Source: Streptomyces agglomeratus
GTDB lineage: Bacteria; Actinomycetota; Actinomycetes; Streptomycetales; Streptomycetaceae
Reading direction: 5' to 3'
NCBI RefSeq assembly: GCF_001746415.1
Contig: NZ_MEHJ01000001.1
Coordinates: 1,799,001 to 1,863,000, forward strand
DNA length: 64,000 nucleotides
This document shows, piece by piece, positions 15,897-55,866 of this stretch. Within the stretch, counting starts at the first letter, position 1. Every line of letters starts with the position of its first letter. A program made the translations under genes and the position numbers. A model generated the notes under the pieces. It ran no database searches. It was not told where the DNA came from and was given only the letters and a program-made list of their open reading frames with translations.

Positions 15897-16910
15897 TCAG
15901 TCCTTGGCCGGCCGGGCCGGGTCGGGTGCGGTGGGCCCGGTGCGGGCCGGGTCCCCATGGGGTGACGCGGGGAGCGGCGCCGGGCGGGGCCCTTCGCCGG
16001 CGGCGAGGAAGAGCACCGCGCACAGCATCAGCGCCGTACCGGTGAGGACGACCGCGTTCAGCCGTTCACCGAAGACCGCGATGCCGATGACCGCGGCGGT
16101 GAGCGGTTCGACCAGGGCGACCACGGAGGCCGTCGCGGCCCGTACGGCGCCGAGGCCGGTGAAGAAGAGCGTGTACGCCAGCGCGGTCGGCACCGCCCCC
16201 AGGTAGAGCATCAGCCCCAGGGTCGGTACCGCACGCTCCATGCCGGGCAGCAGTCCTTCCAGGAGAGCCATGGGCAGCAGGCAGACGGTCCCCACCGCGA
16301 AGCCGGTCACCGTCGACTCGAACGCACCACCGGTGTGCCTGCGGCCGGAAGCGCGCCCCAGCAGGGTCACGCCCGCGTAGCCGACGGCGGACAGCAGCGC
16401 GTACCCGATACCCAGGAGGGGGTGGGGGCCGGTGTTCGCGTCGGCGCCCGTCGTCAGCATCACCAGGCCGGCGACGCCGCTCACCACGGCGCAGGTGCCG
16501 GCGGCGCCCTGGCGTTCGGCCAGCATGAGCCGGGCTCCGACGGTGACCAGCAGGGGCCCCGAACCGAGGGTCACCACCGTCGCCACCGTGAGCCCGGCCT
16601 GTTGCACCGAGGCGAAGTAGGCGGTCTGGTACACGGCCAGCCCGAAGCCCGTGACCATGGCCTGCCGGCTGTTCGCGGTGAACCACCCCCGTAACGACGC
16701 CGTGCCGGGCCGCCGGGAGCGCCGGACCAGGTGGGCTGTCAGGAGCACCATGAGCCCGGTCACGAACCGCCAGAAGGAGACGGAGACGGGACCGATCCCG
16801 CCGACGTCGTACAGCTCGGCGGCCACGGCGCCGCCGGTGCCCCACGCTGTCGCCGCGATCGCGACGTAGAGAACGCCCTGCCGGCCGGGCAGGGCTGAAG
16901 AGGACTGCAC
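15897..16910 (-). CDS. EamA/DMT-family transporter
   Basis: 337 residues from GTG 16910, chosen because GAGGAG lies eight bases upstream. Ten hydrophobic spans in two EamA repeats are visible (GVLYVAIAATAWGTGGAVAA ... ALAYTLFFTGLGAVRAATAS), as in drug/metabolite exporters. The C-terminal tail is Pro-rich. It is the last gene of the minus-strand cluster and follows the methyltransferase after 145 bp containing an attenuator-like structure, so its expression may be set separately. Likely role: efflux of product, intermediate or amino acid; substrate not inferable. Confidence 0.85.
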   Translation of the reverse strand: MQSSSALPGRQGVLYVAIAATAWGTGGAVAAELYDVGGIGPVSVSFWRFVTGLMVLLTAHLVRRSRRPGTASLRGWFTANSRQAMVTGFGLAVYQTAYFASVQQAGLTVATVVTLGSGPLLVTVGARLMLAERQGAAGTCAVVSGVAGLVMLTTGADANTGPHPLLGIGYALLSAVGYAGVTLLGRASGRRHTGGAFESTVTGFAVGTVCLLPMALLEGLLPGMERAVPTLGLMLYLGAVPTALAYTLFFTGLGAVRAATASVVALVEPLTAAVIGIAVFGERLNAVVLTGTALMLCAVLFLAAGEGPRPAPLPASPHGDPARTGPTAPDPARPAKD

Positions 16911-16960
16911 CTGAGATCTCCTCGATTGGTTGCCGTCACGATGTCCGCGTGGGCAACGCA

Positions 16961-17046
16961 CCCAGCCACCCCGGCGACGGCCGGGGTGGCTGGGCGGGAC
17001 CGCCCACCTAGAAGGCGGGCGGCGGAGGAGTCACAAACAGCTGCAC
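16961..17046 (-). promoter_or_regulatory. Attenuator-like leader upstream of the EamA gene
   Basis: In transcript order: a 12-codon reading frame from GTG 17046 (VQLFVTPPPPAF, TAG at 17008-17010), then TGGGCG pairing with CGCCCA (17006-17001 with 16996-16991), then a perfect 15-bp stem (16994-16980 with 16975-16961; 4-base loop). The small hairpin and the long stem share 16991-16994, so they exclude each other, the arrangement of ribosome-mediated attenuators. The leader lacks a clear ribosome site, and no U-run follows the stem. Alternatively the stem is simply the methyltransferase terminator. Confidence 0.42.
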
Positions 17047-17055
17047 AGGTCCAAG

Positions 17056-17892
17056 CTACCCGGCGCCGCGCCCGTCGTCGGCGGGTTTGCGGCCCGAGGC
17101 GTAGACCGTGATCGAGCGGAGGTCGGTGAACCCGGGATCGTCGCACAGGGCGATCACCGCGTCGACGTCCGTCTGTTCCAGCAGACCGGAGGCGACCAGG
17201 TAGGCGCCCTCCTGACGGATGTTGGCGGCGGTCAGCGCGCCGTAGGGGCCCTGCTCGCCGATGCAGTTGGCCCGGGTCAGGACACCGATGTCACGCAGCC
17301 CGGCGCGCGCCAGCCGGGACGGGATCGTCTGCGCCCACCCCAGCATGTCGGAGCCCTGCGCGGCCCACCCCTCCTCCAGGGCCCCGAAGAAGCGGCGGAC
17401 CGGCTCGTACACCGAGCCCGCGGCCGGCATGCACATCGCGTCGCCGAGCGCGAGCCGTCCCCCGGGCTTGAGCCACCGCACCGCCTTCTCGACCAGGGCC
17501 TCCCGCTCGGGCAGGTGGCAGAAGGTCAGCCGGGAGTGGACCAGGTCGAACTCGCCGGGTGCGAAGTCGAGTTCGCGTATGTCGCCGGTGCGCCACTCCA
17601 GGTTGGGCAGCTCGTCGGCGAGGTACCGGGTGTCGATGTCGACGGCGACGACGGAGCCGTCCGGGCACTGCTCGGCCATCCACCGTGCGACGGCCCCGGC
17701 GCCCGCGCCTATCTCCAGGCACCGCCAGTCGCGGCCGATGCCCGCTGTCCGCAGGACGGTACGGGTGTCCGGATCACCCCACTCCTGGAGCAGCCGCAGT
17801 CGCTCGAACTCCTCCGGTGTGTCCTTGCTCAGCGCGCCCGACGCGTAGTCGGTCGCCAGAGTCGGTTCACGGGTCATCGGCTCAGGGGTCAT
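17056..17892 (-). CDS. SAM-dependent class I methyltransferase
   Basis: 278 residues; ATG 17892 has GGAGG eight bases upstream and overlaps the amidase stop by ATGA. Motif I is CLEIGAGAGAVARWMAEQ (about 60-78), the acidic ribose-binding residue is in VVAVDIDTRYL, and FDLVHSRLTFCHLPERE plus VRWLKPGGRLALGD are motifs II/III. It resembles UbiE/type-11 small-molecule methyltransferases. The tight coupling to the amidase places it in the same transcript; it probably O- or N-methylates the cluster product. Substrate unknown. Confidence 0.88.
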   Translation of the reverse strand: MTPEPMTREPTLATDYASGALSKDTPEEFERLRLLQEWGDPDTRTVLRTAGIGRDWRCLEIGAGAGAVARWMAEQCPDGSVVAVDIDTRYLADELPNLEWRTGDIRELDFAPGEFDLVHSRLTFCHLPEREALVEKAVRWLKPGGRLALGDAMCMPAAGSVYEPVRRFFGALEEGWAAQGSDMLGWAQTIPSRLARAGLRDIGVLTRANCIGEQGPYGALTAANIRQEGAYLVASGLLEQTDVDAVIALCDDPGFTDLRSITVYASGRKPADDGRGAG

Positions 17893-19340
17893 GGGTTGCC
17901 TCCGCTGTCGGGCTCCGGCGGACGTCGGTCGCGCCGCCCCAGTGCGCTCTCCAGCGCCGCCGCCACCCTGAAGACGGTCGCCTCCTCGAAGGGCCGTCCG
18001 ATGATTTGCAGACCGATGGGCAGGCCGTTGTCGGCGAAGCCGATCGGCAGCGACAGGGCCGGGTGGCCGGTGACGCTGAACGGGATCGTCTGCATGTCGT
18101 TGGCGAGCTTGGGCGGCGGCCAGTTCTCGGGGAAGTCGCTCCAGCGAGCGGCGGTCGTCTGGCCGCACGCGGTGATCAGCACGTCGTGACCGGCGAAGAC
18201 GGTCTCGTCGAGCCGCCGGGTCAGCATGCGGCGGACCTCGTGGGCCCGCAGCAGGTCGGCCGCCCCGATCCCCGCGCCGGGCATCACACGCTGGTAGGTG
18301 TAGCGGCCGAACGAGCGCGGGTGCTGGCGCAGGTCGTCCTCGTGGGTGGCGAACGCCTCTGCCGCGAAGACGACCCGGCCGACCGCGTTGAACACGTCGT
18401 ACGGCTCCAGTACGACCTGTTCGACGTCGGCGCCGAGGCCGCCGAGCACACCGAGTGCCCGCTCGATACCGGTGACGATCTCGGGCAGCGTGCCGGGGTC
18501 GTCGGCGTACCAGCCGGGCGAGGTCGCGATCCGCAGACCGGCGACGCCGCGTTCCAACTGCGCTCCGTAGTCGGGGACTTCGACGTCGGCGGTGCGCGGG
18601 TCGGCCGGGTCGGCGCCCGCGATGACCTGAAGTGCGGCCGCCGCGTCGGCGACGGTCCAGGTCAGCGGCCCGAACTGGTCCAAGGTGTGCGAGAGCGGCT
18701 GGATGCCGTGGCCCGACACCCGTCCGCGTGTCGGCTTGAGCCCTACGGCGCCGCAGTGGAACGCCGGGCCGCGGGTGGAGCCGCTCGTGTCGGAGCCGAC
18801 GGTGACCCGGACCAGGCCGGCCGCGACCGCGGCGCCGGACCCCGAGGACGACCCGCTCGGCACGTGCTCGGGGCTCCAGGGGTTGCGGGCTGGCGGGAAC
18901 GGCAGATCGAAGCTCGGGCCGCCGACCGCGAACTCGAACGTGGTCAGTTTGCCGAGTCCGACGCCGCCGCCGGCGCGCAGCCGGCTCTCGACCGTGCTGT
19001 CCGTGCGCGCGACGTGGTCGGCGCACAGCCGCGAGGCGTTGGTCGTGGGCACCCCCTCCGCGTCGATGATGTCCTTGAGCGCGTACGGAATGCCGTGCAT
19101 CGGCCCGCGGTCGATCCCGGCCCGCAGGTCCCGGTCGGCCGCGGCGGCGCGTTCGAGCGCCGTCTCGCCCGTCACCAGGATGAAGGCGCTGAGCGCGGGG
19201 TCGAGGCGCGTGATCCGGTCGAGGGCGTGGCGGGTGAGCTCGACCGAGGTGAGCTCACCCGCCCGCAGCAGCGCTCCGGCCTCCGGTACGGAGAGCTCGT
19301 GCAGGGCCGTGGCCCGTCTAGCCGTTCGGGCGTCAGCCAT
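17889..19340 (-). CDS. Amidase-signature family hydrolase
   Basis: 483 residues. The Ser-cisSer-Lys triad is readable: Lys89 in IPYALKDI, cis-Ser in PSGSSSGSGAAVAAG (162-175), nucleophile Ser188 in GSDTSGSTRGPA. It hydrolyses amides or transfers the amide nitrogen. It is preceded by a 66-residue AtzG-like gene with an eight-base overlap, the same pairing as a hydrolase with its GatC-like subunit. In a cluster with peptide ligases it may trim or deprotect an amide. Family certain, role inferred. Confidence 0.9.
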   Translation of the reverse strand: MADARTARRATALHELSVPEAGALLRAGELTSVELTRHALDRITRLDPALSAFILVTGETALERAAAADRDLRAGIDRGPMHGIPYALKDIIDAEGVPTTNASRLCADHVARTDSTVESRLRAGGGVGLGKLTTFEFAVGGPSFDLPFPPARNPWSPEHVPSGSSSGSGAAVAAGLVRVTVGSDTSGSTRGPAFHCGAVGLKPTRGRVSGHGIQPLSHTLDQFGPLTWTVADAAAALQVIAGADPADPRTADVEVPDYGAQLERGVAGLRIATSPGWYADDPGTLPEIVTGIERALGVLGGLGADVEQVVLEPYDVFNAVGRVVFAAEAFATHEDDLRQHPRSFGRYTYQRVMPGAGIGAADLLRAHEVRRMLTRRLDETVFAGHDVLITACGQTTAARWSDFPENWPPPKLANDMQTIPFSVTGHPALSLPIGFADNGLPIGLQIIGRPFEEATVFRVAAALESALGRRDRRPPEPDSGGNP

Positions 19341-19533
19341 GTGCGGCCTCCGTCCCGCCGCCGGTCCTGCCGCGGTGGCCGGTGTCGACGCCGCGCAGCA
19401 GCGCCGTCATGCCCCGCAGTCCCTGGTATCCGCTCAGGACTCCGCCCTTGAGGTCGGCGGGCACCTCGATGCCCAGGCGCCCGGTGAAGACGTCGAACTC
19501 GTGCTCGGCCGGGGTCATCTCGTCAGACGTCAT
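19333..19533 (-). CDS. AtzG-like (DUF4089) GatC-type amidase partner, 66 aa
   Basis: The reading frame MTPAEHEFDVFTGRLGIEVP ... GVLSGYQGLRGMTALLRG is a short helical protein resembling AtzG/DUF4089, which binds amidase-signature enzymes as GatC does in GatCAB. ATG 19533 overlaps the end of the peptidase gene; a second ATG at 19518, just past that stop, is an alternative. It overlaps the amidase start by eight bases, supporting a stoichiometric complex. The similarity is by pattern, not a search. Confidence 0.6.
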   Translation of the reverse strand: MTSDEMTPAEHEFDVFTGRLGIEVPADLKGGVLSGYQGLRGMTALLRGVDTGHRGRTGGGTEAAHG

Positions 19534-21010
19534 CGGTGCCCGGTTCCCGGGGGCCGGCCTCACGCTGCGCGGCGAGCCAGGACTCCACCTCGTGCGACTG
19601 CGTCGGCAACGCCTCCGTCAACACCCGCGCACCCGACGCCGTGACCTGCACATCGTCCTCGATCCGCACACCCACACCACGCAACTCCGCAGGCACCAAC
19701 TCATCATGCGGCTGCAAATACAGACCCGGCTCCATCGTCAGCACATGATTCTCCCGCAACACCCCACCCCCGTAGAACTCCGGACGCGAATGCCCACAGT
19801 CATGCACATCCAGACCCAACATGTGCCCGAACCCGTGCAACGACCACCGCCGGTACTCCAACGACGACGGATCCAACGCCTCCTCCACACTCCCCCTCAA
19901 CAACCCCAACCCACGCAACCCCTCCGCCAGAACCCGGTTGCACACCTCCTGAACCTCAACAAACGCAACCCCCGGCGCCAACACCCCAAGCCCCGCCGTC
20001 CGCGCCGCATACACAATGTCGTACACATCACGCTGCGCCACACTGAACGAACCCGACACCGGCAACACCCGCGTCACATCAGCCGTATAACCATTGACGT
20101 TCTCCACACCCATGTCCAACAACAACACCTGCCCCGGCTCAACCACCCCGTCATTCCGCGACCAGTGCAAAATCGTCGAACGCCCACCACCAGCCACAAC
20201 AGAGCTGTAACCCACCCCATTGCCCTCCACCCGCGCACGCCACGCGAACACACCATCAACAAACCGCTCAGCCGTCACACCATCCGGCCGCAACCGCCGC
20301 GCCACATCCTCAAAACCACGCACCGTCGCATCGACCGCATCCTGCAACTGCGCGATCTCCCACTCGTCCTTCACCAACCGCAACTCCGACAACACACTCG
20401 CCAACAACCCGTCACGCGCCACATTGCCCGCCGTCACCGGCAACACACCACGCTCCAGACCACCGTCGATACCACGGTCATAACCCCGCAACACCCGCAA
20501 CCGGTCCGACGACGCCACCCGCCCCAACACCCCGGGCAACTCACCCAACACCCGCGTCTCAATCCCCAGACGCACCGCCTTCTCCCCCGGCGAGAACCGA
20601 CGCCCGTGCCAGATCTCCCCGTCCATGCGGTCGAGGTACTGGGCGCCGGACGTGGCGTCCGACCTCGGCTGCACGTACAGCACCGCGTCGTGACCGGTGG
20701 CCGTCGGATGCATGACCAGGACCGAGTCGGGCTCCTGGTCACCGGTGAGCCACAGGAAGTCGCTGCCGGCGCGGAAGTCGTACGGCGCGCCGAACGTCCG
20801 CGAGTGGATGTTGCCCGTCGGGATCACCAGCGTGTCACCCGGGAACGCCTGCGACAGCAGCTCGCGCCGCCGCGCCAGGTGCTTCACCTGCGCCACCGGC
20901 GTCAGGTCCACCTCCTCCTCCCGCCAGCCCGTCGCCATGAAATCCACGAACTGTGCCGGGATCTCCGAGTCGTGAGCGCCCGAGACTTCTTCCCGTCCGA
21001 TGTTCGCCAT
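19523..21010 (-). CDS. M24 family aminopeptidase (Xaa-Pro aminopeptidase-like), copy 1
   Basis: 495 residues, ATG 21010 with GAGGAGGAAG upstream. N-terminal creatinase domain (GNIHSRTFGAPYDFRAGSDF, FLWLTGDQEPDS) and C-terminal pita-bread domain with the dinuclear-metal ligands in VLLLDMGVENVNGYTADVTR, WSLHGFGHMLGLDVHD, LTMEPGLYL and VGVRIEDD. Normally removes the residue before proline; in a peptide cluster it may process a precursor or confer resistance. The last ~1.09 kb is almost identical to the copy at 23763-25250, and its coding strand is unusually rich in codons ending in T and G. Confidence 0.92.
   Translation of the reverse strand: MANIGREEVSGAHDSEIPAQFVDFMATGWREEEVDLTPVAQVKHLARRRELLSQAFPGDTLVIPTGNIHSRTFGAPYDFRAGSDFLWLTGDQEPDSVLVMHPTATGHDAVLYVQPRSDATSGAQYLDRMDGEIWHGRRFSPGEKAVRLGIETRVLGELPGVLGRVASSDRLRVLRGYDRGIDGGLERGVLPVTAGNVARDGLLASVLSELRLVKDEWEIAQLQDAVDATVRGFEDVARRLRPDGVTAERFVDGVFAWRARVEGNGVGYSSVVAGGGRSTILHWSRNDGVVEPGQVLLLDMGVENVNGYTADVTRVLPVSGSFSVAQRDVYDIVYAARTAGLGVLAPGVAFVEVQEVCNRVLAEGLRGLGLLRGSVEEALDPSSLEYRRWSLHGFGHMLGLDVHDCGHSRPEFYGGGVLRENHVLTMEPGLYLQPHDELVPAELRGVGVRIEDDVQVTASGARVLTEALPTQSHEVESWLAAQREAGPREPGTDDV
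19529..20622 (-). repeat. 1.09-kb direct repeat, copy 1 (3' part of the first M24 gene)
   Basis: Matches 23769-24862 at a constant offset of 4240 bases; the one difference I noticed is C at 19700 against A at 23940, which changes Glu to Asp. A second identical patch lies at about 20741-20846. The repeat brackets the ATP-grasp-like and MFS genes, so recombination between copies would delete or amplify about 4.2 kb. Confidence 0.92.
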
Positions 21011-21074
21011 GCGGTCTTCCTCCTCTGAACGGGCCGGCCTCGTGGTGTCGAGGCAGTGACCCGGGTCCGACAAC

Positions 21075-21091
21075 CCGCTGTGATACAGCGG
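21075..21091. promoter_or_regulatory. Inverted repeat ahead of M24 copy 1
   Basis: CCGCTGT-GAT-ACAGCGG, seven-base arms, lies in the 145-bp gap between the ATP-grasp-like gene and M24 copy 1, 65 bp before the latter. It could be an operator or a weak hairpin. This is one of the few non-overlapping junctions in the cluster, so a separate promoter here is plausible. Confidence 0.35.
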
Positions 21092-21155
21092 CTGTTCATG
21101 GTCGCAGGTGTTATGTGAGCACAGGTGGCCGGTCGATGTGCGCCTACCGCGCGGA

Positions 21156-22481
21156 TCAGCCGGAGTGCCAGCCGACGGTGCCCAGGATGGTGGGGGCCGC
21201 CGCCCCCGGTGCGGCGTCCGGCGGAGCGGGGATGTCGTAGCGGACGCCGCATCCGGCCATCCGGCCGCCCATGACGAGCGGGCCGAACACCGCGGGGGTC
21301 GAGAGGGACGTGTACGCGCCGCGCTCGCAGTCGAGGACGTCCGTGTCGATCGCGGCGCTGTGGACCACCTCCTGAGCAATCCAGGTGCCGGCCTTCCTCG
21401 CCCCGGTGATGACGTCCTCCCATGCGGGCGCTGACGTCCTGGAGCCGAGGTGGACTCCGGAGTTCTGGTCCCCGTCGGACCGCTTGAGGACGAAGTCCTC
21501 CCGCCGCTTCACGAGCAGCTCGGTCAGGTCCCAGTCGGACCCCTCGTACTCCACGCGCTCCTGCCGGACCGATCGCGACCAGGGGATGTACGTGCGCACG
21601 AACTCCCGGTCCTGGTCGGTCATCCACTCCCGCCCCTCGGACAGCACCGCGAAGAGCTGCTTGTTGGCGGCCTGGTAGGAACTCTGCGGTGTCAGCACCA
21701 CGGCACCGGACTTCTTGATCTTCAGCAGCGGACCGAGATCCCGTCCCGTGTCGATCCACTCCTGCGGCACCATTCTCTCCAGCACCAGCGGGAACTCGTC
21801 GCGGCGCGTGGCGAGGGCGTCGATGAACTCGTCGGTCTCGAAGTACTGCGCCTCGAACCCTCCCTTGCGCAGCGCGTCGACCTCGATCTCGTAGTACCGC
21901 CGGCTCCGGATGCCCACGTCGGCGAGCGACCCGACGAGTGCCACGCGCGGGGTAGTGCCGTGGTCCCCGGCCACGGTGCGCAGCAGTTCGGTGCGTACCT
22001 TCAGGGGGTCGGCGAGCCTGAGTGCGCCGGACACCTCGTCGGGCAGCAGATGGCGCCATATCTCGTTGAGGAGGTGGATGTACACCTGGCCGCCCGTGGC
22101 GGAGCAGAAGTTGAACTCGATGAACTTCCAGCCGGACCCGGTGAGGATCGCGTCCGGTCTGCCGATGGCGGTGGCATACCTGTTCTCGAATTCCTCGTCC
22201 CCGTAGAAGGCGGTCAGCCGCTCGTCGAGGCCCAGGGCGCGGTGCCGGGAAAGGCAGTCGTCGCCCAGGCTCCGTACCGCTCGGCGCAGCAGGCCGGCGA
22301 GATACGTGGTCGCCCCGGCCAGTTCGTCACCGCGCGCGGCCGGAAGCACGACGGGGCCGGCCGGTGCGACGCGGTCGAACCAGAAGGTGCGGAATCCCCG
22401 GAGCTGGTGGTCGAACGCGTTGAGCAGGACGCGCGGCTCCGTCGCGGTCATCGCGCGGGAAGCCGCCGAGAGGTTCTGCAT
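21156..22481 (-). CDS. Putative ATP-grasp-like ligase (unassigned)
   Basis: 441 residues, ATG 22481 three bases after the MFS stop, with AGGAG shared across it. I cannot place it in a named family. The pattern of a pre-ATP-grasp N-terminus, a central segment with KFIEFNFCSATGGQVYIHL, and a later lysine/acid-rich core LLVKRREDFVLKRSDGDQNS, GVHLGSRTSAPAWEDVI resembles peptide-forming or circularly permuted ATP-grasp enzymes. Lying between two M24 peptidases and next to a transporter, it could form a peptide bond in the product. Treat the fold as inference. Confidence 0.5.
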   Translation of the reverse strand: MQNLSAASRAMTATEPRVLLNAFDHQLRGFRTFWFDRVAPAGPVVLPAARGDELAGATTYLAGLLRRAVRSLGDDCLSRHRALGLDERLTAFYGDEEFENRYATAIGRPDAILTGSGWKFIEFNFCSATGGQVYIHLLNEIWRHLLPDEVSGALRLADPLKVRTELLRTVAGDHGTTPRVALVGSLADVGIRSRRYYEIEVDALRKGGFEAQYFETDEFIDALATRRDEFPLVLERMVPQEWIDTGRDLGPLLKIKKSGAVVLTPQSSYQAANKQLFAVLSEGREWMTDQDREFVRTYIPWSRSVRQERVEYEGSDWDLTELLVKRREDFVLKRSDGDQNSGVHLGSRTSAPAWEDVITGARKAGTWIAQEVVHSAAIDTDVLDCERGAYTSLSTPAVFGPLVMGGRMAGCGVRYDIPAPPDAAPGAAAPTILGTVGWHSG

Positions 22482-22484
22482 CTT

Positions 22485-23711: not shown

Positions 23712-23762
23712 CCGCGGCCTTCACCGGGCAGGGGCCGCCGGGGGCGCACTGAGGGCGGTGGC

Positions 23763-25250: not shown

Positions 25251-25285
25251 GATGTTCCTCTTCTCGTTACGGAGTTGTTCTGCCG

Positions 25286-26227
25286 TCACCGGTCGCGGCC
25301 CGGCTCCGGGACGCCCCCGGTCGCGGCCTGTGAAGTCACCAGATGAGCGCAGGTGATCAGGTCGAGGTAGGCACTTCCCGTGGAGGCGAACACCGTCCGC
25401 CGCCACGGGAAACCGTCCGCCTCTTCGGACATCAGGGCGCCCAGCTCAAGGGCGCCCGCATGACTCTCCCCCGCCTCGGCGATCGCCGTGCGCAGGTCCT
25501 CGACGATCACGACGCTGGTACGCAGCAGCTCGGCGGGCACCTCACGCGACGCGGTGGTGTGCGCGCCCATGCAGTTGATGTGCGCATGGGCCGGCAGCTC
25601 CGCCGGGATCGGCAGTGGGACCGCCGAGGTGGTCGCGGTCGACAGGATGTCGACGCCCCGGCCGGCCTCCTCGGCGGAGCCGCAGACGACGACGTCCACC
25701 GGCCGGCCGGCGGCCGACGCCTCGATGTCCCGCGCGAAGGCCGCGGCGTGCGCGGGGCTGCGCGACCAGATCCGGACCTGGGCGAGGTCGCGTACCGCCG
25801 ACACCCCGAGGAACTGCTGGCGGGCCTGCACACCGGAGCCGATGATCCCGAGAACCCGGCTGTCCGGTGCCGCGCACCGGTCGGTCACCAGCGCCGTCAC
25901 GGCCGCGCACTTGAGGTTGGTGACGGTCGCCCCGTCCAGCGTGCCGAGGTAGCGCCCGGTGGAGGCGGAGAACATCGGCACGACGGAGGTGACGGTGGAG
26001 CCCGCGCCCGCCGACGGCATGATCGTCGCGACCTTGTTGACGTACAGGTCGTGGTCGGGCGACACGGCGGGCATCGAGATGAACTTCGCGCCCGACGCGT
26101 CCTCGACGGTCTCCCGCGGCGGCAGCAGCATCCGGCCGACGGAACCGTCGCGCAGCGCCTCGCACATCGCCTCCTGGATCGCACGTACGAGTGCGACCGG
26201 GGCCGGCGGGGTCGGAGTCGATGTCAT
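25286..26227 (-). CDS. Ornithine cyclodeaminase / mu-crystallin family oxidoreductase (OCD 2)
   Basis: 313 residues, overlapping the oxoamine-synthase stop by ATGA. The Rossmann motif is VLGIIGSGVQARQQFLGVSA (about 125-145); substrate-side landmarks are YVNKVATIMP and INCMGAHTTASREVP. Members are NAD(P)H imine or ketimine reductases, alanine dehydrogenases or amino-acid cyclases. Directly after an alpha-oxoamine synthase it may reduce an enone, imine or ketone on that enzyme's product. A second family member lies at 40494. Exact reaction unknown. Confidence 0.88.
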   Translation of the reverse strand: MTSTPTPPAPVALVRAIQEAMCEALRDGSVGRMLLPPRETVEDASGAKFISMPAVSPDHDLYVNKVATIMPSAGAGSTVTSVVPMFSASTGRYLGTLDGATVTNLKCAAVTALVTDRCAAPDSRVLGIIGSGVQARQQFLGVSAVRDLAQVRIWSRSPAHAAAFARDIEASAAGRPVDVVVCGSAEEAGRGVDILSTATTSAVPLPIPAELPAHAHINCMGAHTTASREVPAELLRTSVVIVEDLRTAIAEAGESHAGALELGALMSEEADGFPWRRTVFASTGSAYLDLITCAHLVTSQAATGGVPEPGRDR

Positions 26228-44949: not shown

Positions 44950-44958
44950 GGGTCGCCG

Positions 44959-47342: not shown

Positions 47343-47397
47343 GGGTGCTTCCTCGGAACGTGGCGGGGTGGGTCGGGGGTTACCAGGCACTGGGGGG

Positions 47398-48387
47398 CTA
47401 CCAGGCACTGTCGGTCTTCTTCGGATCGCGCTCGACAACCGGGTCGAGGATCTCGTCGATCTGCTTCATGAGGTCGGCGTCGAGCGTGGCTTCGGCGGCC
47501 ACCACGTTGTTGCGGACCTGCTGGGGGCGGGACGCCCCGACCACGGCCGCGGCGACGTTGGGGTTCTGAAGGGTCCAGGCGATGGCGAGCTGAGCCCTGG
47601 TCAGGCCGGCCTCACGGGCCAGGGGGGCCAGCCGCTGCACCCGCTCCAGAACGTCGTCGCGCAGGAACCCGGCGACCCACTGGGCGCCGTTCGCGTCGGC
47701 CGCGCGCGAGCCCGCGGGAGCCGGACGGCCCGGCAGGTACTTGCCGCTCAGCACGCCCTGCGCGACGGGCGACCAGACCATCTGGCTCAGGCCCTCCTGC
47801 TCGCAGAGCGGGACGACCTCCTCCTCGATCACGCGCCACAGCATCGAGTACTGCGGCTGGCTGGCCACGAAGCGTTCGAGTCCGAGTTCGTCGGCGAGGC
47901 GCAGCGCCTGCCGGATCTCGTCGGCCGTCCACTCGGAGACACCGATGTAGAGGACCTTGCCCTGCCTGATCAGGTCGTCGAAGGCCCTGAGCGTCTCGGC
48001 CAGCGGAGTGTCCCGGTCGAAACGGTGCGCGTAGTAGATGTCCAGGTAGTCGGTGCCCAGCCGGCGCAGGGATCCGTGCGCCGACTCCATGATGTGCTTG
48101 CGGGACAGTCCCCGGTCGTTGGGGCCGCTGCCGACCGGGAGGCACACCTTCGTGGAGATCTCCAGGGATTCCCGGCGGTGGCCCTTGAGCGCGCGGCCGA
48201 GGACCTCCTCGGCCCTGGTCCCGGCGTAGACGTCCGCCGTGTCGAAGGTGGTGATGCCCACGTCGAGGGCGGCGGCGACGCACTCGGCGGCCGTGTCCTC
48301 GTCGATCTGGGAGCCGTGGGTCAGCCAGTTGCCGTACGCGATCCGGCTGACCTTCAGTCCGCTGTTGCCGAGCCTGCTGAATTCCAT
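47398..48387 (-). CDS. Aldo-keto reductase (voltage-gated K-channel beta-subunit-like)
   Basis: 329 residues; ATG overlaps the preceding TGA by one base (TGATG). The TIM-barrel tetrad is readable: Asp in TTFDTADVYAGTRAEEVLG (with Tyr five residues later), Lys in ISTKVCLP, His in IYYAHRFDRDTP. NADPH motif near GASRPQQVRNNVVAAEATL. It would reduce a ketone or aldehyde. Translational coupling with the molybdopterin enzyme suggests consecutive redox steps. Confidence 0.92.
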   Translation of the reverse strand: MEFSRLGNSGLKVSRIAYGNWLTHGSQIDEDTAAECVAAALDVGITTFDTADVYAGTRAEEVLGRALKGHRRESLEISTKVCLPVGSGPNDRGLSRKHIMESAHGSLRRLGTDYLDIYYAHRFDRDTPLAETLRAFDDLIRQGKVLYIGVSEWTADEIRQALRLADELGLERFVASQPQYSMLWRVIEEEVVPLCEQEGLSQMVWSPVAQGVLSGKYLPGRPAPAGSRAADANGAQWVAGFLRDDVLERVQRLAPLAREAGLTRAQLAIAWTLQNPNVAAAVVGASRPQQVRNNVVAAEATLDADLMKQIDEILDPVVERDPKKTDSAW

Positions 48388-50465
48388 CAGTCCTCGTCTC
48401 TGCTCGGGCGGTCGATCGGTTCGACCTCCACCCGGTTGTCGTGAAAGACGGCTCCGCCGCCCATGTCCGCGTCGCGCTCCTCGGTCGTGGCGTTGACGCC
48501 GAAACCGTCGTGGAGCTTCGGCCAGTGGCCCTTGGGGCTCGATGCCACGCCGGGCCGGACCGTGTCGTCGACGCGGGCCGCTGCCGTGAAGGAACCGCGG
48601 GCGTTGAAGACCCGTACCGGGTCGCCCGCCGTGATGCCCCGTGCGGCGGCGTCGAGGGGGTGCAGGACCACGTACGGGTCACCGGCCCGGCGCCGCAGCT
48701 TGGGCTTGTTGCCGAACACCGTGTTGAGGAAGAAGTGCGAGGCTCCGGAGAGCAGCACCAGGGGGTAGCGGCCGGCCAGCTCCGGATCCGACACCTCACG
48801 GGCGGGCGTGAAGCCGGCCAGGGGGTCCAGGCCCTCGGCCGCGGCCCGCTCCGACAGGAACTCCAGCTTGCCCGAGGGGGTGGGGAACCCGTCCTTGTAC
48901 GGGGCGAAGGAGGCGGGATAGGCGAGCCGGGCCCAGCCGTTCTTGCGCAGGTGCTCCAGGGTGATCCCCTCCAGTGAGGGGTGTTCGGAGTCCAGCAGCT
49001 GCCGCGCCAGTTCCTCGTCCGAGTCGTACAGGCTCGGCTCCGTGAGCCCCATGTGGCGGGCCAGCCGGCGGAAGGTCTCGGTCGTCGACAGGCACTCGCC
49101 CGGCGGGGGTACGGCCGGCTCGTTCCAGGTGAGGTAGAGGTGGCCGTAGCCGTCGTGCAGGTCCATGTGCTCCGGCTGCATGGTGGCCGGGAGCACGAGG
49201 TCGGCGTAGTCGGCGGTGTCCGTCTGGAAGTGGTCCATGACGACGGTGAAGAGGTCCTCCCGCTCCAGGCCCCGGCGGATCCGGTTCTGGTCCGGCGAGC
49301 TGGCCACCGGGTTCGCCCCGTACACCACCAGCGCCTTGACCGGCGGGTCCGCCGCTTCGAGCAGTCCTTCGGCCAGCCGCGTCATGGACAGGGACCGCAC
49401 CGGGCCCGGTCGCAGGTCGTCGCGGTACAGCGCCTCGCGGTTGCCGCCGAAGTACCCGTCGGTCGTGTAGTGCAGGCCGCCGCCGGGCAGCGCCCAGTCG
49501 CCGGTCACGCCGGGAATGCAGGCGAGGGTGCGTACGGCCGTGCCGCCGCCGGCGTGGCGCTGGATGCCCTGCGCCACGCGGATCGCGGTCGGCCGGGTCG
49601 TCGCCAGCCGCTCGCCGAGACTCACGATGACGGCCTCGTCGAGGCCGGTCAGCCGGGCGACACGGGCGGGCGTGAACTCCATGACCCGTTCGCGGAACTG
49701 CTCCCAGCCGACGGTGTGGCGCTCCAGGTACGCGCGGTCCTCGGCGCCCATCGTGACGACGACGTGGAGCAGCCCGAGGGCGAGCGCGGCGTCGGTGCCC
49801 GGCAGGGGGGCCACGTGCTCGTCGGCCTGCTGGGCGGTGCGCGTCCTGACGGGGTCGATCGCCACGACCTGGGCACCGGCCCGGCGGGCCTGCTGGATCG
49901 GCTTCCACAGGTGGTGGCCGGAGCTGAGGGTGTTCGTCCCCCACAGCAGGATGAGCCGGGAGTCGCGCAGGCCCTCCGGGTCGAGGCCCCGGCTGGTGCC
50001 GAGGGTGTATTCGAGCCCCGCGAGACCGGCGATCGAGCAGATGGTCATGTCGTGCTCCGACGCACCGAGCACGTTCCAGAGCCTGCTCCCCGCTCTGCCC
50101 TGAAGTCCCTGGAGGAAGCCGAGCGTTCCCGTCCCCTGGTAGGGCCAGATCGCCTCGCCGCCGTAGCGGTCGACGATGCCGGTGAGCCGCTGGGCCATCT
50201 CCGTCAGCGCCTCGTCCCAGGTGATCCGCTCGAACTTCCCCTCCCCCTTGGCGCCGACGCGGCGCAGGGGATACAGAAGACGGTCGGGAGCCCGGGTGTG
50301 CTCGAGGAACTGGTTGACCTTCACGCACAACGCGCCCTGCGTGTACGGGTGGTCGGGGTTTCCCCGCATGTCGACGGCGGCGCCGTTCTCGATCGTCAGC
50401 AGCCAGCTGCAACCGTCCGGGCAGTCCAGCGGGCATGCCCCCGGAACGGTCTTCGACTCGGTCAC
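48387..50465 (-). CDS. Molybdopterin-dependent oxidoreductase (DMSO-reductase superfamily)
   Basis: 692 residues from GTG 50465 (GGAAGAGG upstream). A 4Fe-4S site is formed by Cys11, Cys15, Cys19 and Cys47 (ACPLDCPDGCSW ... GALCVK). Molybdopterin-binding domains follow: LLWGTNTLSSGHHLWKPIQQ, VAIDPVRTRTAQQADEHV, the C-terminal beta-barrel TAGDPVRVFNARGSFTAAAR. No Tat signal, so it is cytoplasmic, unlike most respiratory members. As I recall, a molybdopterin enzyme in the belactosin cluster reduces the nitrocyclopropyl group to the amine. The neighbouring diiron and 2OG genes suggest the same job here. Confidence 0.9.
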   Translation of the reverse strand: MTESKTVPGACPLDCPDGCSWLLTIENGAAVDMRGNPDHPYTQGALCVKVNQFLEHTRAPDRLLYPLRRVGAKGEGKFERITWDEALTEMAQRLTGIVDRYGGEAIWPYQGTGTLGFLQGLQGRAGSRLWNVLGASEHDMTICSIAGLAGLEYTLGTSRGLDPEGLRDSRLILLWGTNTLSSGHHLWKPIQQARRAGAQVVAIDPVRTRTAQQADEHVAPLPGTDAALALGLLHVVVTMGAEDRAYLERHTVGWEQFRERVMEFTPARVARLTGLDEAVIVSLGERLATTRPTAIRVAQGIQRHAGGGTAVRTLACIPGVTGDWALPGGGLHYTTDGYFGGNREALYRDDLRPGPVRSLSMTRLAEGLLEAADPPVKALVVYGANPVASSPDQNRIRRGLEREDLFTVVMDHFQTDTADYADLVLPATMQPEHMDLHDGYGHLYLTWNEPAVPPPGECLSTTETFRRLARHMGLTEPSLYDSDEELARQLLDSEHPSLEGITLEHLRKNGWARLAYPASFAPYKDGFPTPSGKLEFLSERAAAEGLDPLAGFTPAREVSDPELAGRYPLVLLSGASHFFLNTVFGNKPKLRRRAGDPYVVLHPLDAAARGITAGDPVRVFNARGSFTAAARVDDTVRPGVASSPKGHWPKLHDGFGVNATTEERDADMGGGAVFHDNRVEVEPIDRPSRDED

Positions 50466-50559
50466 GCTACCTCTTCCCCCGTTGCTCACCACTGACTGTC
50501 GGTCCCCTCCGGACGGCTGGTGCCGGCCGCCCGGAGGGGGAGGCACATCGCCCCGCTCG

Positions 50560-51816: not shown

Positions 51817-51865
51817 GCGCAGTCATTCCTTCGATGGTGGAGAAAGTGGGGGTACTGAAAAGTCC

Positions 51866-53185
51866 TCAGGCCGCTCGGCGGGCACGTCTCAGCAGCACCG
51901 AGAGCAGTGCGGCCGACAGCAGCGTGGCGAGCGCCATGGCCGCGAACATCGACCAGGCGGGCGCGAACGTACCGCCGACGCCGATGGCCGCCAGCAGCAG
52001 GAGCTGCACGATGGACGACGCGAACTGGATGCCGCTCAGGACCCGGCCGAGTACGGCCGGCTCCGTCCTGGCCTGTACGTAGGCGGGGAACAGGATTCCC
52101 GAGCAGCTGATCGCGAGGCCGAGCAGCACCGAGGCGGGAAGCGAGTAGCTCATCTCCGCGATGACGGAGAAGACGAGCATCGTCACGGCGATCGCCACGA
52201 GGGAGTGGACCAGCAGACGCAGCTCGTCCGTGATCCGCCCGGCGAACCGGGAGATCACCATCCCGGCGAGCAGGGCCCCGCCGCCCCAGGCTCCCTCCAG
52301 GAGGCCGAAGCCGACCGGGCCGGCGCCGAGCTGCTCCTTGGCGAAGACCGGCAGCAGCGCGTTGGAGGCCGCCAGCACGCTCAGCGGCAGGATGGAGAAC
52401 ATGACGACCAGCAGATGGGTGCGGTTCGCCGCGACGCTCCGCGCAGCGACGCCCAGGTCGTGCCGCCAGCCGCTGCCCGCCGGCGCGGCGGGCCCGTCCT
52501 GCACGGCGGGCATGTCGGGTCCGGCGGGCACACCGGGGACACCGGGCACACCGGCACCGGGCACGGCGGCCACCGCGACCGGGGGTGAGGCCGGCGCGGC
52601 GGCACCGGGGACCAACTGGAGCGCGACCGCGGCCACCAGGTAGCACAGTGCGGCCGTGTACAGCCCGATCGCCACACTGCCGCCGCCCACCAGGAGCCCG
52701 CCCAGCGCGGAGGCGGCGATGCCGCCGACCTGGGTGGCGATCTGCCAGGTCGCGTTGCCCGTGACGAGCTTCTGTCGGGGCAGCACCTGGGGCAGCATGG
52801 CCCCGTAGCACGGCAGGGTCACCGCGTTGCCCAGCCCCAGCACCAGGGTGACCGCGTAGACGTGCCACAGGGCGAGCGGCGCCGCGCTGTGCAGCACGGC
52901 GAGAGCCACCACCGCGCCGACCCTGGTCAGTTCGGCGATCTGGCCGATGCGCCGGCGGTCGTAACGGTCGATCAGCACACCGCCGTACAGCGCCGCGAAC
53001 ACGCTGGGTACGGTCATCGCGATGGCGAGCCCCGCGACTTCGGTGCTGTTGCCGCCCTGGTCGATGAGGAGCCAGGCCGTGGCGATGAAGTAGACACCGG
53101 TGGCGGCGACCGAGGCGAGCCTGGTCGTCAGCAGGGGGAAGAACCCCCGCTGTGCGACCGTCCGGGTGTCGTCGACACGGATCAC
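51866..53185 (-). CDS. MFS transporter with Gly/Pro-rich central loop
   Basis: 439 residues; GTG 53185 (GGGAG upstream) overlaps the epimerase-like gene by GTGA. Twelve spans in two bundles, loop GGVLIDRYDRRRIGQIAEL with the MFS basic signature, and GIAASALGGLLVGGG in helix 5. The central cytoplasmic loop (about residues 200-235) is a Val-Pro-Gly-rich low-complexity stretch longer than usual. Likely exporter for the product or for self-protection. Confidence 0.88.
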   Translation of the reverse strand: MIRVDDTRTVAQRGFFPLLTTRLASVAATGVYFIATAWLLIDQGGNSTEVAGLAIAMTVPSVFAALYGGVLIDRYDRRRIGQIAELTRVGAVVALAVLHSAAPLALWHVYAVTLVLGLGNAVTLPCYGAMLPQVLPRQKLVTGNATWQIATQVGGIAASALGGLLVGGGSVAIGLYTAALCYLVAAVALQLVPGAAAPASPPVAVAAVPGAGVPGVPGVPAGPDMPAVQDGPAAPAGSGWRHDLGVAARSVAANRTHLLVVMFSILPLSVLAASNALLPVFAKEQLGAGPVGFGLLEGAWGGGALLAGMVISRFAGRITDELRLLVHSLVAIAVTMLVFSVIAEMSYSLPASVLLGLAISCSGILFPAYVQARTEPAVLGRVLSGIQFASSIVQLLLLAAIGVGGTFAPAWSMFAAMALATLLSAALLSVLLRRARRAA

Positions 53186-54045
53186 GCCGGTACTCCCTGG
53201 CCCAGGCGGGCGCGGAAGGCCGGCGAGAAGTCTCCGGTGGCCACCTGCTCGGCCGTACCGGTCATCGTGATCTCGCCCTGCTCGCCGACCGACACCTCCA
53301 TGGTCCCGCCCGCCATCTCGACGACGACGTGCTCGCCGACCAGTCCGAGCCGGTGCGCCGCGGCCGTGGCCGCGCAGGCGCTGCTGCCCGAGGCGAGGGT
53401 GTAGCCCGCGCCGCGTTCCCACACCTCGATCCGGATGGTGCCGCGGTCGAGGACGCTCAGGAACTGGACGTTGGTGCCCTCGGGATACGCGGGGTGCCAG
53501 GCGATCAGCGGGCCGAGTTCCCGGGCGAGGTCGGCGCTGACCTCGTCGAGCGGCACCACCGTGTGCGGGTTGCCCAGGTGCAGGCCGATCACGTCGAGGT
53601 GGCGCGCCCCCGCCGTGAGGCCCACCGGGGCGTCCGTGGCGAACGCCGGCACGCCCATCTCGACCCGGACCCGCCCCTCGGCGAAGTCCAGGATGTCGGC
53701 GCGGGAGTCCCCCGCGACGGTCCTGAGGACGACGGAGGTCTCCGCCGGCTCCTCGGGCCGCACCGGCCCGGCTCCGTAGTGCTCCGCCAGGTAAAGGGCG
53801 AACATCCGCAGCCCGTTGCCGCTCTTCTCGCACGGGCTGCCGTCGGAGTTGAAGATGCGCAGTCCGACGGGCTCGCCCGGGCGGGGTTCTGCCGTGGGTC
53901 CGATGAGCACACCGTCCGCGCCGACGCCCAGGTGCCGGTCGCACAGCAGCCGGACCGTCTGCGCGGTGGCGGTGAAGTCCACGCGCAGTGGATCGATCAC
54001 AAGGTAGTCGTTGCCGAGTGCCTGGTACTTCGTGAAGTCGCTCAT
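53182..54045 (-). CDS. Diaminopimelate-epimerase-family protein with both catalytic cysteines replaced by serine
   Basis: 287 residues. DapF fold throughout: FTKYQALGNDYLVID, IFNSDGSPCEKSGNGLRMFA, HLGNPHTVV, EVWERGAGYTLASGSSACAA. In DapF the first base is Cys in E-x-CGNGxR and the second is Cys in TLACGTGACA. Here residue 75 is Ser (EKSGNGLR; a Cys lies at 72) and residue 219 is Ser (LASGSSACA; a Cys lies at 224), both codons read directly. Ordinary thiol/thiolate epimerisation is therefore unlikely. It may be an isomerase with altered chemistry or bind an amino acid carrying the nitro or amino group. It is not the housekeeping enzyme. Confidence 0.85.
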   Translation of the reverse strand: MSDFTKYQALGNDYLVIDPLRVDFTATAQTVRLLCDRHLGVGADGVLIGPTAEPRPGEPVGLRIFNSDGSPCEKSGNGLRMFALYLAEHYGAGPVRPEEPAETSVVLRTVAGDSRADILDFAEGRVRVEMGVPAFATDAPVGLTAGARHLDVIGLHLGNPHTVVPLDEVSADLARELGPLIAWHPAYPEGTNVQFLSVLDRGTIRIEVWERGAGYTLASGSSACAATAAAHRLGLVGEHVVVEMAGGTMEVSVGEQGEITMTGTAEQVATGDFSPAFRARLGQGVPA

Positions 54046-54094
54046 CAGTCCCGCTCTGTTCCCGAATCCGTTGCGGTGCGGCCGGTGGGGCCGG

Positions 54095-54784
54095 TCAGGC
54101 CGGGCGGTCGGCCAGCGCCCGCTCGTCGTGCTCCTCGCCGTACCACTTGTCGCTCCAGCGGGAGAACGCGACGATGACGATGTCGCGGTGGCCCGGCCCG
54201 CCGTCGGCGGACAGGACGTCGGTGACGTCGTGGGCCAGCGCGCGGTCGTCCAGCAGCACAGCCTGGTTGGGGTTGAGGGTGCCCTCCCAGAAGGGGGCGT
54301 CCGCGCCGGGCTCCCAGAGCCGGGTCTCCCCGCCGGCCACGTTCTCCCTGCGGAAGACGGCGATCATGACGAACTCGTGGCCGTCGTGGTGCACACCCTC
54401 GGGGGTCAGCGGACCGGGCTTCCCGCCGTCGGCGCGGGTCCGGTTCTGGTGCACGTTGATCTGCCAGTCCTCGGACCGGTCGAGACCCAGCTCGGCGGCG
54501 CCGATGGCGATCAGCGGAGTGAAGTCGACCTGGATCGGCTCGTAGACCCGGCGGATGCCGCCGCCGACGGAGTTGAACGTCTTGTACGTCGTGTAGTCAC
54601 GGTGCGGCAGCAGCTCGAAATGCCACTCACCGTCCTTGGACTTCAGCCGGTACTGGTCGAAACGCTTGAAGCGCGTGCCGTTTCCCATGTAGTCGTCGAC
54701 GGGCAGATCGTCGTAGCTGGCGAGGAGGTCCGCCGATGCCTCGGGCAGGTCGACGACGGTGAATCCCTGTGCGTTCAGGGGCAT
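54095..54784 (-). CDS. 2OG-Fe(II) oxygenase of the 2OG-Fe_Oxy_2 type (isoleucine-hydroxylase/HrmJ-BelL-like)
   Basis: 229 residues from ATG 54784. Iron ligands His132-x-Asp134 in GVHHDGHEFVMIA and distal His185 in DDRALAHDVTDV, with a conserved Arg at 200 in GHRDIVIVAF. The N-terminal YMGNGTRFKRFDQYRL and PIQVDFTPL belong to the free-amino-acid dioxygenase group (PF10014). As I recall, HrmJ and BelL of hormaomycin and belactosin, which close a nitrocyclopropane from 6-nitronorleucine, are of this group. Next to the diiron gene the pairing matches those clusters. Simple amino-acid hydroxylation is the alternative. Confidence 0.82.
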   Translation of the reverse strand: MPLNAQGFTVVDLPEASADLLASYDDLPVDDYMGNGTRFKRFDQYRLKSKDGEWHFELLPHRDYTTYKTFNSVGGGIRRVYEPIQVDFTPLIAIGAAELGLDRSEDWQINVHQNRTRADGGKPGPLTPEGVHHDGHEFVMIAVFRRENVAGGETRLWEPGADAPFWEGTLNPNQAVLLDDRALAHDVTDVLSADGGPGHRDIVIVAFSRWSDKWYGEEHDERALADRPA

Positions 54785-54822
54785 GACACAGCCTTTCGGG
54801 AAAGAGGTCGGGGAATGCGCGA

Positions 54823-55866
54823 TCAGGCGGCGGCGACCGGCATGCGCTCGTCGAGGTAGCGGGCCGACGAGTTCAGCCGCCAGAGCGTGCCGCGTGCGAT
54901 GGCCCGGCGCATGTGGGCCGATTCGGCGGCCGGCAGCACCACGTTGTGGAACCATCCGGCGGCGTGCTGGGAATCCACGGTGATGTGCAGCCGGTGGTAG
55001 ACGATGCCGATGTCCGGAAGACCGAGCCGCTCCCAGGCGTGCACGACCTGGACGAACCGGTCGGGCACCATCCACTCGGTCATGCCGAGGAAGCCGACGG
55101 CCTCCGGGTAGAACTTGCGGTACCTGGAGAGCATGACCGCGAGGTTCCCCGAGAGCAGGGCGTTGGCCGTGAGGCTTCGCTCCAGCTCCTCCGGCGGGAT
55201 CTCGAACACCTCGTAGATCTTGTTGAAGAGCAGAGTGTGCACCTGGTCCGGGTCGCCGTTGCCCATCTCGTCCCAGAAGTTCGCGGCGATCTCCATCTTG
55301 GCCCGCCCCGAAGTGCCGACCTGCATCATGGCGAGCAGGTCGTCGAAGCGGCCGTCGACCACCGACTCCTGCATCACGTAGTTGCGCAGGTCGTCCGCGT
55401 CGGCCTGGTTGCGGATGAACTCGTGGTAGTACGGGTGCTTGAAGACGCGGTGTCCACGGGCCAGTTGCTTCAGCCAGGACAGGTAGGCGCGGGGCTCCTC
55501 GGGAGCCTGCTCGAGAAGGCCGGGCTCGATCCAGTCGTCCTCGACCTGCGCGGTGGCTTCCTCCAGGAGGCGGGTCACCTCGGACACGAAGACGGAGCCT
55601 TCGGCCGTCGTCGTCTCGGGGAGCACGGTGTGCATCTGGTAGATCCGGGCCAGCAGCAACTGCTGGGCGTAGAAGGCTGCCTGATCACCTACGAGGGATT
55701 CGGCGTTGAGCTTGCGCACCCCGTCGATCAGCCTGTCCCTGTCCTCGCCGGTGATCTTCGCGTCGACTTCTGCGGCGTCAGTGGTCAGCCAGCCCGACAC
55801 CTCGTCGACGAGGGCGAGCGGGTCGTGCGGCACTGCGGTCCGGGCGGGTGTCTCACGGGTTTCCAT
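54823..55866 (-). CDS. Haem-oxygenase-like diiron oxygenase/oxidase (HDO; BelK/HrmI-like)
   Basis: 347 residues, all-helical, from ATG 55866 (AAGGAA eight bases upstream). Metal-ligand pattern of the iron-containing redox family: Glu167 (NYVMQESVVDGRFDD), Glu200 and His210 (NFWDEMGNGDPDQVHTLLF), then Glu264, Asp298 and His301 (HRLHITVDSQHAAGWF). Relatives include UndA, SznF and, as I recall, BelK/HrmI, which oxidise the lysine side-chain amine to a nitro group. First gene of the long minus-strand run, adjacent to the 2OG oxygenase that would act on a nitro amino acid. Family likely, reaction inferred. Confidence 0.8.
   Translation of the reverse strand: METRETPARTAVPHDPLALVDEVSGWLTTDAAEVDAKITGEDRDRLIDGVRKLNAESLVGDQAAFYAQQLLLARIYQMHTVLPETTTAEGSVFVSEVTRLLEEATAQVEDDWIEPGLLEQAPEEPRAYLSWLKQLARGHRVFKHPYYHEFIRNQADADDLRNYVMQESVVDGRFDDLLAMMQVGTSGRAKMEIAANFWDEMGNGDPDQVHTLLFNKIYEVFEIPPEELERSLTANALLSGNLAVMLSRYRKFYPEAVGFLGMTEWMVPDRFVQVVHAWERLGLPDIGIVYHRLHITVDSQHAAGWFHNVVLPAAESAHMRRAIARGTLWRLNSSARYLDERMPVAAA

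Follow-up and report, generated by a model that had tools for sequence, protein, structure and literature searches.

Does an unbroken run of biosynthetic genes on one strand encode a single pathway, or several that adjoin? The question is raised by a region of the Streptomyces agglomeratus genome that we analyzed as a 64,000-nucleotide window (the whole stretch; positions 1799001-1863000 of contig C1, NZ_MEHJ01000001.1, in assembly GCF_001746415.1, our genome G000, 9.13 Mb in 5 contigs). All genes called between 55866 and 15897 sit on the minus strand, separated by gaps of -22 to +306 bp. The initial annotation had read this run as three amino-acid-making modules merged into one cluster free of nonribosomal peptide synthetases (NRPS). 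We consider it likely that the run instead holds three cassettes, here called A, B and C, all free of NRPS and each largely self-sufficient and with an evolutionary history of its own, which stand head to tail in one 43-kb island and probably make two or three products; every chemical step proposed below for them we infer from sequence.

A codon-usage script called the genes, and translation recovered two M24 peptidase genes that had escaped it; the 36 genes called in 15.9-55.9 kb were all searched against Pfam and 20 of them against NCBIfam. No NRPS adenylation, condensation or carrier domain occurs among the Pfam matches of these 36 proteins, and the modules named in the initial annotation are borne out by family: a full hydroxyphenylglycine (Hpg) set (prephenate dehydrogenase, an enzyme like 4-hydroxyphenylpyruvate dioxygenase (HPPD) or hydroxymandelate synthase (HmaS), an FMN dehydrogenase and a pyridoxal phosphate (PLP) aminotransferase; Pfam/NCBIfam), a CoA-aldol/oxoamine module (CitE, MaoC, LeuA and oxoamine synthase; Pfam/NCBIfam), a diiron/2-oxoglutarate/molybdopterin module (Haem_oxygenas_2, 2OG-Fe_Oxy_2 and molybdopterin families), two peptidases (both M24, near-identical duplicates) and five transport systems (by Pfam two EamA, two of the major facilitator superfamily (MFS) and one five-gene Liv-type ATP-binding cassette (ABC) importer). 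The expected ATP-grasp ligase is present, with a LAL_C2 domain by Pfam, and a second one (21156-22481) is recognized by fold. That second ligase, a cryptic oxygenase U23 (28424-29353), a PhyH-family oxygenase (37122-38042) and two genes of the ornithine-cyclodeaminase (OCD) family (25286-26227 and 40494-41471) go beyond what had been annotated. The run splits at two junctions into A (55866-40494), B (40368-33698) and C (33391-17056). The B/C gap of 306 bp is the widest of the run and the A/B gap measures 125 bp; a junction scan found no sigma-70-like promoter at either, and a single stem resembling a terminator, which lies between B and C at 33595-33577, is not above chance (1 found, 0.6 expected).

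To follow each cassette we used one marker: the diiron oxidase (HDO) of A, the PhyH oxygenase of B and U23 of C. Counting the window's own genome each time, HDO occurs in 29 and PhyH in 32 of 392 genomes, and U23 in 8 of 246 genus-sample genomes, one of these being a 32% partial match. The three carrier lists share just one genome, the window's, and no other sampled genome has two of the three markers. We examined gene contexts at 20 of 30 non-own HDO places, at 20 of 33 non-own PhyH places and at 17 loci retrieved with U23 as query (at most 10 kb each side; one from a metagenome-assembled genome). Locus L086 of genome G209 contains the whole of A in collinear order, from a divergent regulator through HDO, BelL, DapF, MFS, ligase, molybdenum (Mo) enzyme, aldo-keto reductase (AKR), AT40 and LivJHMGF to OCD2, followed by a TetR-like and then an MFS-like gene (both named by eye), with neither B nor C nearby; the MFS gene is present there, although a length filter of the presence table scored it (MFS2) as 0. 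Five of the 20 PhyH loci (L106-L110) hold the same six genes as B in the order HmaS-Hmo-PhyH-HpgT-EamA-prephenate dehydrogenase, and HDO, BelL, the Mo enzyme, oxoamine synthase, LeuA and U23 are found in none of the 20. At the C loci, U23, oxoamine synthase and OCD1 stand together in 17/17, joined by the g25 oxygenase in 16, the hydrolase in 15, CitE and MaoC in 13 each, LeuA in 12 and an M24 peptidase in 8; HDO, HmaS, Hmo, PhyH, HpgT, the Mo enzyme and DapF occur in 0/17, and the OCD2 matches in 16/17 are cross-matches to OCD1. A whole-genome search for oxoamine synthase gave 0/29 among carriers of A or B, a search in which no genome was positive.

As each of the three is found in other genomes without its two companions (A alone in G209, B in five loci, the C core in 17), we rejected a single merged pathway as the best reading. 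The annotated modules were correctly identified and do lie in one block, but that block splits into operons conserved separately in other genomes, an outcome that the annotation itself had named as refuting the merger. The single (pseudo)peptide predicted from it, with an arylglycine, a ketomethylene unit and a cyclopropyl amino acid, is improbable: its contiguity, shared strand and short gaps speak for it, as do the absence of the whole block from one relative and an A-type EamA gene at the far end of C (both below), yet besides their separate occurrence, ligase genes are present in both A and C, and no cassette lacks an exporter-like gene of its own. The fallback offered in the same annotation, products of adjoining clusters, fits better.

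The relative in question, G114, keeps the window's left flank (87% identity) and its right flank (58864-62764, 85-89%) only 2.7 kb apart, so A, B and C, about 43 kb in all, are absent from its matching site. The 2.7-kb spacer carries two open reading frames (ORFs) with no likeness to any window protein, and G114 is absent from the listed HDO, PhyH and U23 carriers. No exact direct repeat of at least 14 bp was found between 15301-16200 and 55801-59300.

Several observations weigh against three independent cassettes. All three form one block on one strand, which may work or have been assembled as one. Zero overlap between A and B carriers is not significant alone (2.2 expected, P of zero 0.09), and flanks around fetched homologue loci reach at most about 10-20 kb. 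Both flanks were found together in G114 only, of four relatives (G085, G114, G119 and G006) fetched past the left flank; G085, the closest at 89%, G119 and G006 have other genes after it. Neither the A nor the C ligase is constant: the window's C ligase is in 3/17 C loci, and the A ligase, found by whole-genome search in 1/17 carriers (G209), is absent in G025, G289 and G361, three of the four A-type carriers searched. Since B lacks a ligase, its amino acid could be passed on to A, and an EamA gene like those beside A-type HDO sits at the far end of C.

Cassette A comprises the following genes, with which a small protein and a regulator gene go:

54823-55866, minus: HrmI/BelK-type diiron oxidase (HDO); PF14518; sole PDB match at E <= 0.001, HrmI 9n1a, E 2.7e-65
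54095-54784, minus: BelL-type iron/2-oxoglutarate (Fe/2OG) nitroalkane cyclopropanase; PF10014; 8jms/9dq0 at 420 bits, about 75-80% identity by eye; H136
53182-54045, minus: DapF-like epimerase (BelM/HrmT counterpart); TIGR00652 over cut-off
51866-53185, minus: MFS transporter; PF05977/PF07690
50560-51816, minus: ATP-grasp amino-acid ligase; PF13535, PF18603 (LAL_C2); best PDB match 3vot, an L-amino acid ligase
48387-50465, minus: molybdopterin oxidoreductase, putative BelN-like nitro reductase (Mo enzyme); PF00384, PF01568, PF04879
47398-48387, minus: aldo-keto reductase (AKR); PF00248
46158-47342, minus: PLP enzyme AT40, GntC/VioD/aminotransferase type; top NCBIfam match GntC, 257.8 bits against a cut-off of 415; PDB 3op7, 8fft
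41468-46119, minus: five-gene Liv-type ABC importer; PF13458, two PF02653, two PF00005
40494-41471, minus: OCD-family enzyme OCD2; PF02423; best PDB match Delta1-pyrroline-2-carboxylate reductase 6t3e
56820-57125, minus: small protein, 101 aa, no Pfam match
57788-58654, plus: divergent LuxR-type regulator with GerE domain

The arrangement of small protein and regulator recurs in G209 at 54% and 64% identity, and among the 20 fetched HDO loci only that of G209 has the Liv operon and a close ligase. Region 56351-58654, upstream of the cassette, also holds a 46-aa ORF in which the motif DAGWQ is repeated. As far as the accessible parts of the sources describe these clusters, A shares with the belactosin (bel) and hormaomycin (hrm) clusters an HDO, a BelL-type cyclopropanase and a DapF-like gene held together, and with bel a Mo enzyme and an ATP-grasp ligase (PMC10764440, PMC11427300). 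It differs from both in adding OCD2, AT40, AKR and the Liv-type importer, and the window run is without NRPS; its Mo enzyme gene is set apart from the DapF gene by the MFS and ligase genes. To our knowledge the bel cluster has no OCD gene. The window cyclopropanase has H136 as in BelL, where HrmJ has Arg; 8jms we take to be the cis-forming ScBelL, although the one paper found that mentions ScBelL does not give this entry, and 8fft is presumably GntC. In three loci (L096, L097 and L098), short ORFs resembling BelL (26-32%) but without the HxD motif of the window enzyme lie close to HDO relatives (65-67%).

The excerpts available to us of one paper give the residue rule at position 136 that separates BelL from HrmJ, assign to HDO and BelL-type enzymes the conversion of lysine via 6-nitronorleucine to nitrocyclopropyl-alanine, report that BelL homologues of other strains yield cis isomers and predict that BelN, a Mo enzyme, reduces the nitro group (PMC10764440). 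By analogy, the diiron enzyme of A would N-oxidize L-lysine to 6-nitronorleucine, the BelL enzyme would close this to nitrocyclopropyl-alanine, and the Mo enzyme, perhaps with AKR, would reduce the product to aminocyclopropyl-alanine. Once the nitro group is an amine, cis-aminocyclopropyl-alanine would be an ornithine analogue, for which ring closure by OCD2 and/or the PLP enzyme AT40 onto C-alpha, giving 4,5-methanoproline, is the simplest reading; the ATP-grasp enzyme would then ligate this amino acid and the MFS pump export its product. Nitrocyclopropanation, if cis-selective here, would make the ring fusion geometrically possible. We suggest, tentatively, that A may be devoted to turning L-lysine into 4,5-methanoproline, the type of bicyclic proline found in saxagliptin-like dipeptidyl peptidase 4 (DPP-4) inhibitors. 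We know of no enzymatic route to this type. In the literature, as far as its accessible parts go, the methanoprolines named as natural are plant ones, cis-3,4- and 2,4-, and the remainder concerns synthesis and DPP-4 inhibitors.

The distribution of the late genes bears on this last step. The Mo enzyme, AKR and AT40 (at least 60%) occur together with OCD2 in L086, L092, L093 and L094 and in none of the other 16 of the 20 HDO loci (Fisher p 2e-4; among the 13 loci with BelL of at least 70%, 4 against 9, p 0.0014), both values ignoring kinship and some of the 16 negative loci being distant HDO relatives or a short contig. The pattern may stem from few independent events. It is also quite possible, with a prospect somewhat short of even, that A stops at aminocyclopropyl-alanine and that OCD2 and AT40 serve another purpose, such as redox recycling or the supply of pipecolate or proline. 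This would suit the AT40-like genes (30-34%) of 9 fetched HDO loci that lack the Mo enzyme, and the many reactions that OCD-family names span. Against it, OCD2 is found only alongside the Mo enzyme and AKR (4/4 against 0/16 HDO loci, yet blastp finds a 28% OCD2-like protein in L103), and its best solved match is the Delta1-pyrroline-2-carboxylate reductase. The activities given to OCD2 and AT40 in the methanoproline route are family-level guesses, and the alternative concerns that one step; it is compatible with three separate cassettes.

Cassette B is a six-gene operon:

39295-40368, minus: HmaS-like enzyme; glyoxalase/HPPD family; near PhyH and Hmo in 19/20 fetched loci
38039-39298, minus: FMN hydroxymandelate oxidase-like enzyme (Hmo); PF01070
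37122-38042, minus: PhyH-family oxygenase; PF05721; near HmaS in 19/20 fetched loci
35813-37105, minus: HpgT-like aminotransferase; PF00155; 15/20 fetched loci
34866-35816, minus: EamA transporter; PF00892; 6/20 fetched loci
33698-34861, minus: prephenate dehydrogenase; PF02153/PF20463; 16/20 fetched loci

The HPPD-like gene scores 310.8 against an NCBIfam HPPD cut-off of 277, that is, above it; we read it as HmaS because its neighbors are Hmo- and HpgT-like and because the genome has a separate HPPD-like gene (4936001-4937053, 39% identical to that of B). In glycopeptide-type clusters, Hpg is made via prephenate dehydrogenase, HmaS, Hmo and HpgT. B has genes like all four in one operon, and differs in being tied to a PhyH oxygenase (HmaS stands in 19/20 PhyH loci) and an EamA gene, in a run without NRPS. 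Four enzymes would convert prephenate to L-Hpg, the PhyH oxygenase would modify it, and EamA may export the product.

If B fed A, the ATP-grasp ligase of A might join an Hpg-type residue to the cyclopropyl or bicyclic amino acid, leaving C independent and the region with two products. B itself lacks a ligase and lies just 125 bp from A, and four loci (L115, L116, L117 and L121) place a related Hpg/PhyH set beside genes 26-30% identical to the window ATP-grasp ligase, which makes ligase-made Hpg peptides plausible. L115 also has a luciferase-like monooxygenase by this set. We regard such cooperation as unlikely: the A cassette of G209 has the ligase, yet G209 is not a PhyH carrier, and B stands without A genes in five loci.

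Cassette C holds these genes:

31730-33391, minus: LeuA-like synthase; PF00682; NF002991 over cut-off
31203-31733, minus: MaoC/RipB-like dehydratase; PF01575; RipB match under cut-off
30221-31159, minus: Fe/2OG oxygenase (g25); PF03171/PF14226
29376-30224, minus: CitE/RipC-like aldolase; PF03328; RipC match under cut-off
28424-29353, minus: U23, cryptic Fe/2OG-type oxygenase by predicted fold, HxD...H; invariant H138, D140, H251
27447-28379, minus: alpha/beta hydrolase; PF07859
26224-27468, minus: oxoamine synthase, PRK07505 subfamily; NF005697, 434.6 bits against a cut-off of 342
25286-26227, minus: OCD-family enzyme OCD1; PF02423
23763-25250, minus: M24 aminopeptidase P-like, copy B; PF00557, PF05195
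22485-23648, minus: MFS transporter; PF07690; 2/17 C loci
21156-22481, minus: ligase g18, eukaryotic glutathione-synthetase-type ATP-grasp fold by model and Foldseek; 3/17 C loci
19523-21010, minus: M24 aminopeptidase P-like, copy A; PF00557, PF05195
19333-19518, minus: small gene g17, 61 aa; no Pfam match; homologues beside the amidase in several C loci
17889-19340, minus: amidase; PF01425; 10/17 C loci
17056-17892, minus: methyltransferase; PF08241; 5/17 C loci

U23 has no match in Pfam or NCBIfam, and its 122 protein relatives are, among the 120 listed, mostly hypothetical or nameless, with one labelled TauD/TfdA-like. Its H138, D140 and H251 are invariant across 17 sequences (the alignment leaves out L015, which has a stop codon within range). 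A structural model (pLDDT 73.8, weak at 101-141) gave 50 listed Foldseek matches, all Fe/2OG-type oxygenases judged by their titles and with low TM-scores; the single one under E 0.001 among those listed is 4m23 (3e-4). The 441-aa ligase likewise has no Pfam match and no PDB sequence match, and none of its 20 database relatives bears a functional name; its model (pLDDT 86) leads by Foldseek to eukaryotic glutathione synthetases, best 3kal at E 4e-16. Proteins of another kind, mutually alike by eye, lie near the ligase place in L010, L018, L021 and L025, and a further type in L009, L014 and L020; three ligase-place proteins were scanned, two of them without a match and the third with a weak one, under cut-off, to a circularly permuted ATP-grasp. 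Four Corallococcus loci keep U23, the hydrolase, oxoamine synthase, OCD and an Fe/2OG enzyme of the window's C genes, and the Corallococcus C loci carry an ATP-grasp-like gene, confirmed as LAL-type (L-amino acid ligase) in L021. A variant of C in L009 has an AurF-type N-oxygenase, a class II tRNA-synthetase-like protein and a 76-aa possible carrier (domains checked in L009), protein families that L014 and L020 share.

We propose that CitE and MaoC (and LeuA) build an acyl-CoA that the oxoamine synthase would join to an amino acid; the product would be tailored by two Fe/2OG enzymes and OCD1 and then ligated by the glutathione-synthetase-fold enzyme. In the accessible parts of the ketomemicin (ktm) literature, that cluster shares with C a CitE-type aldolase, a MaoC-type dehydratase, an oxoamine-type PLP acyltransferase and the lack of NRPS, and it has an ATP-grasp ligase, as C may (PMC11943689). 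Counterparts of KtmA, KtmB and KtmC (aldolase, PLP acyltransferase and dehydratase) are thus present at family level, with no orthology implied, and the modelled ATP-grasp fold, a possible KtmD counterpart, falls in a glutathione-synthetase-like branch. C departs from ktm further: the amidinotransferase (KtmE) family is absent from the 36 Pfam-scanned proteins, C has no obvious KtmF-type dehydrogenase or enoyl reductase, for which OCD1 could be the reductase, and it adds LeuA, two Fe/2OG-type enzymes, the hydrolase, the amidase and M24 peptidases.

The two M24 copies differ at 64 of 1488 positions, with just 3 mismatches in the first 1100 bp, a pattern that is, on alignment, the footprint of gene conversion. 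The genome has three more M24 homologues at other sites, one of them interrupted by an internal stop; the extra aminopeptidases may serve self-protection or processing. The peptidase copies also led us to consider bestatin/amastatin-type inhibitors for C, a lead only, for which no gene cluster was found to compare.

At the far end of C stands one gene of uncertain membership:

15897-16910, minus: EamA transporter; PF00892

It looked at first like a C gene, but it is present in 0/17 C loci. Matches of at least 72% (72-78%) occur in three genomes besides its own among 384, each beside an A-type HDO, and two of the three hold a second copy elsewhere (L092-L094, L162 and L165).

Outside the island, the right chromosomal flank (59125-63980, minus), also found in G114, carries Rieske oxygenase, FAD oxidase and GCV_T-domain oxidase genes that likely serve betaine, dimethylglycine or sarcosine breakdown. 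To the left, at 9534-12409 (minus), a 745-aa ORF combines a serine-recombinase N-terminus, a weak zinc-ribbon, a DUF4096 transposase piece and an AMP-binding C-terminal domain beside an ORF with the AMP-binding N-terminal part only; mobile elements appear to have broken up a synthetase gene here.

Judged by their genes, then, A resembles bel/hrm, C resembles ktm and B appears to be an Hpg pathway, none a full match to a characterized cluster as tested. No description of this gene combination was found in the open-access literature at the level of titles and abstract openings, weak evidence of novelty with subscription papers mostly outside that body. Clavulanic acid and cephamycin C are made by a supercluster in which separate pathways lie side by side in one island, and the region resembles it in such side-by-side storage, though with no sign that its own products act together. 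The region is probably best described as a supercluster in location, its parts independent and its products probably two or three. The cassette borders given here, which correct the tempting reading of neighboring genes as one pathway, are offered for test, and three leads come with them: 4,5-methanoproline may be formed by an enzymatic route; Hpg genes go with a PhyH oxygenase in sets that can stand with EamA as sole transporter or beside ATP-grasp-like genes; and Streptomyces, Nocardia, Kitasatospora, Embleya and Corallococcus have in common an apparently uncharacterized oxoamine/Fe-2OG/ligase cluster.

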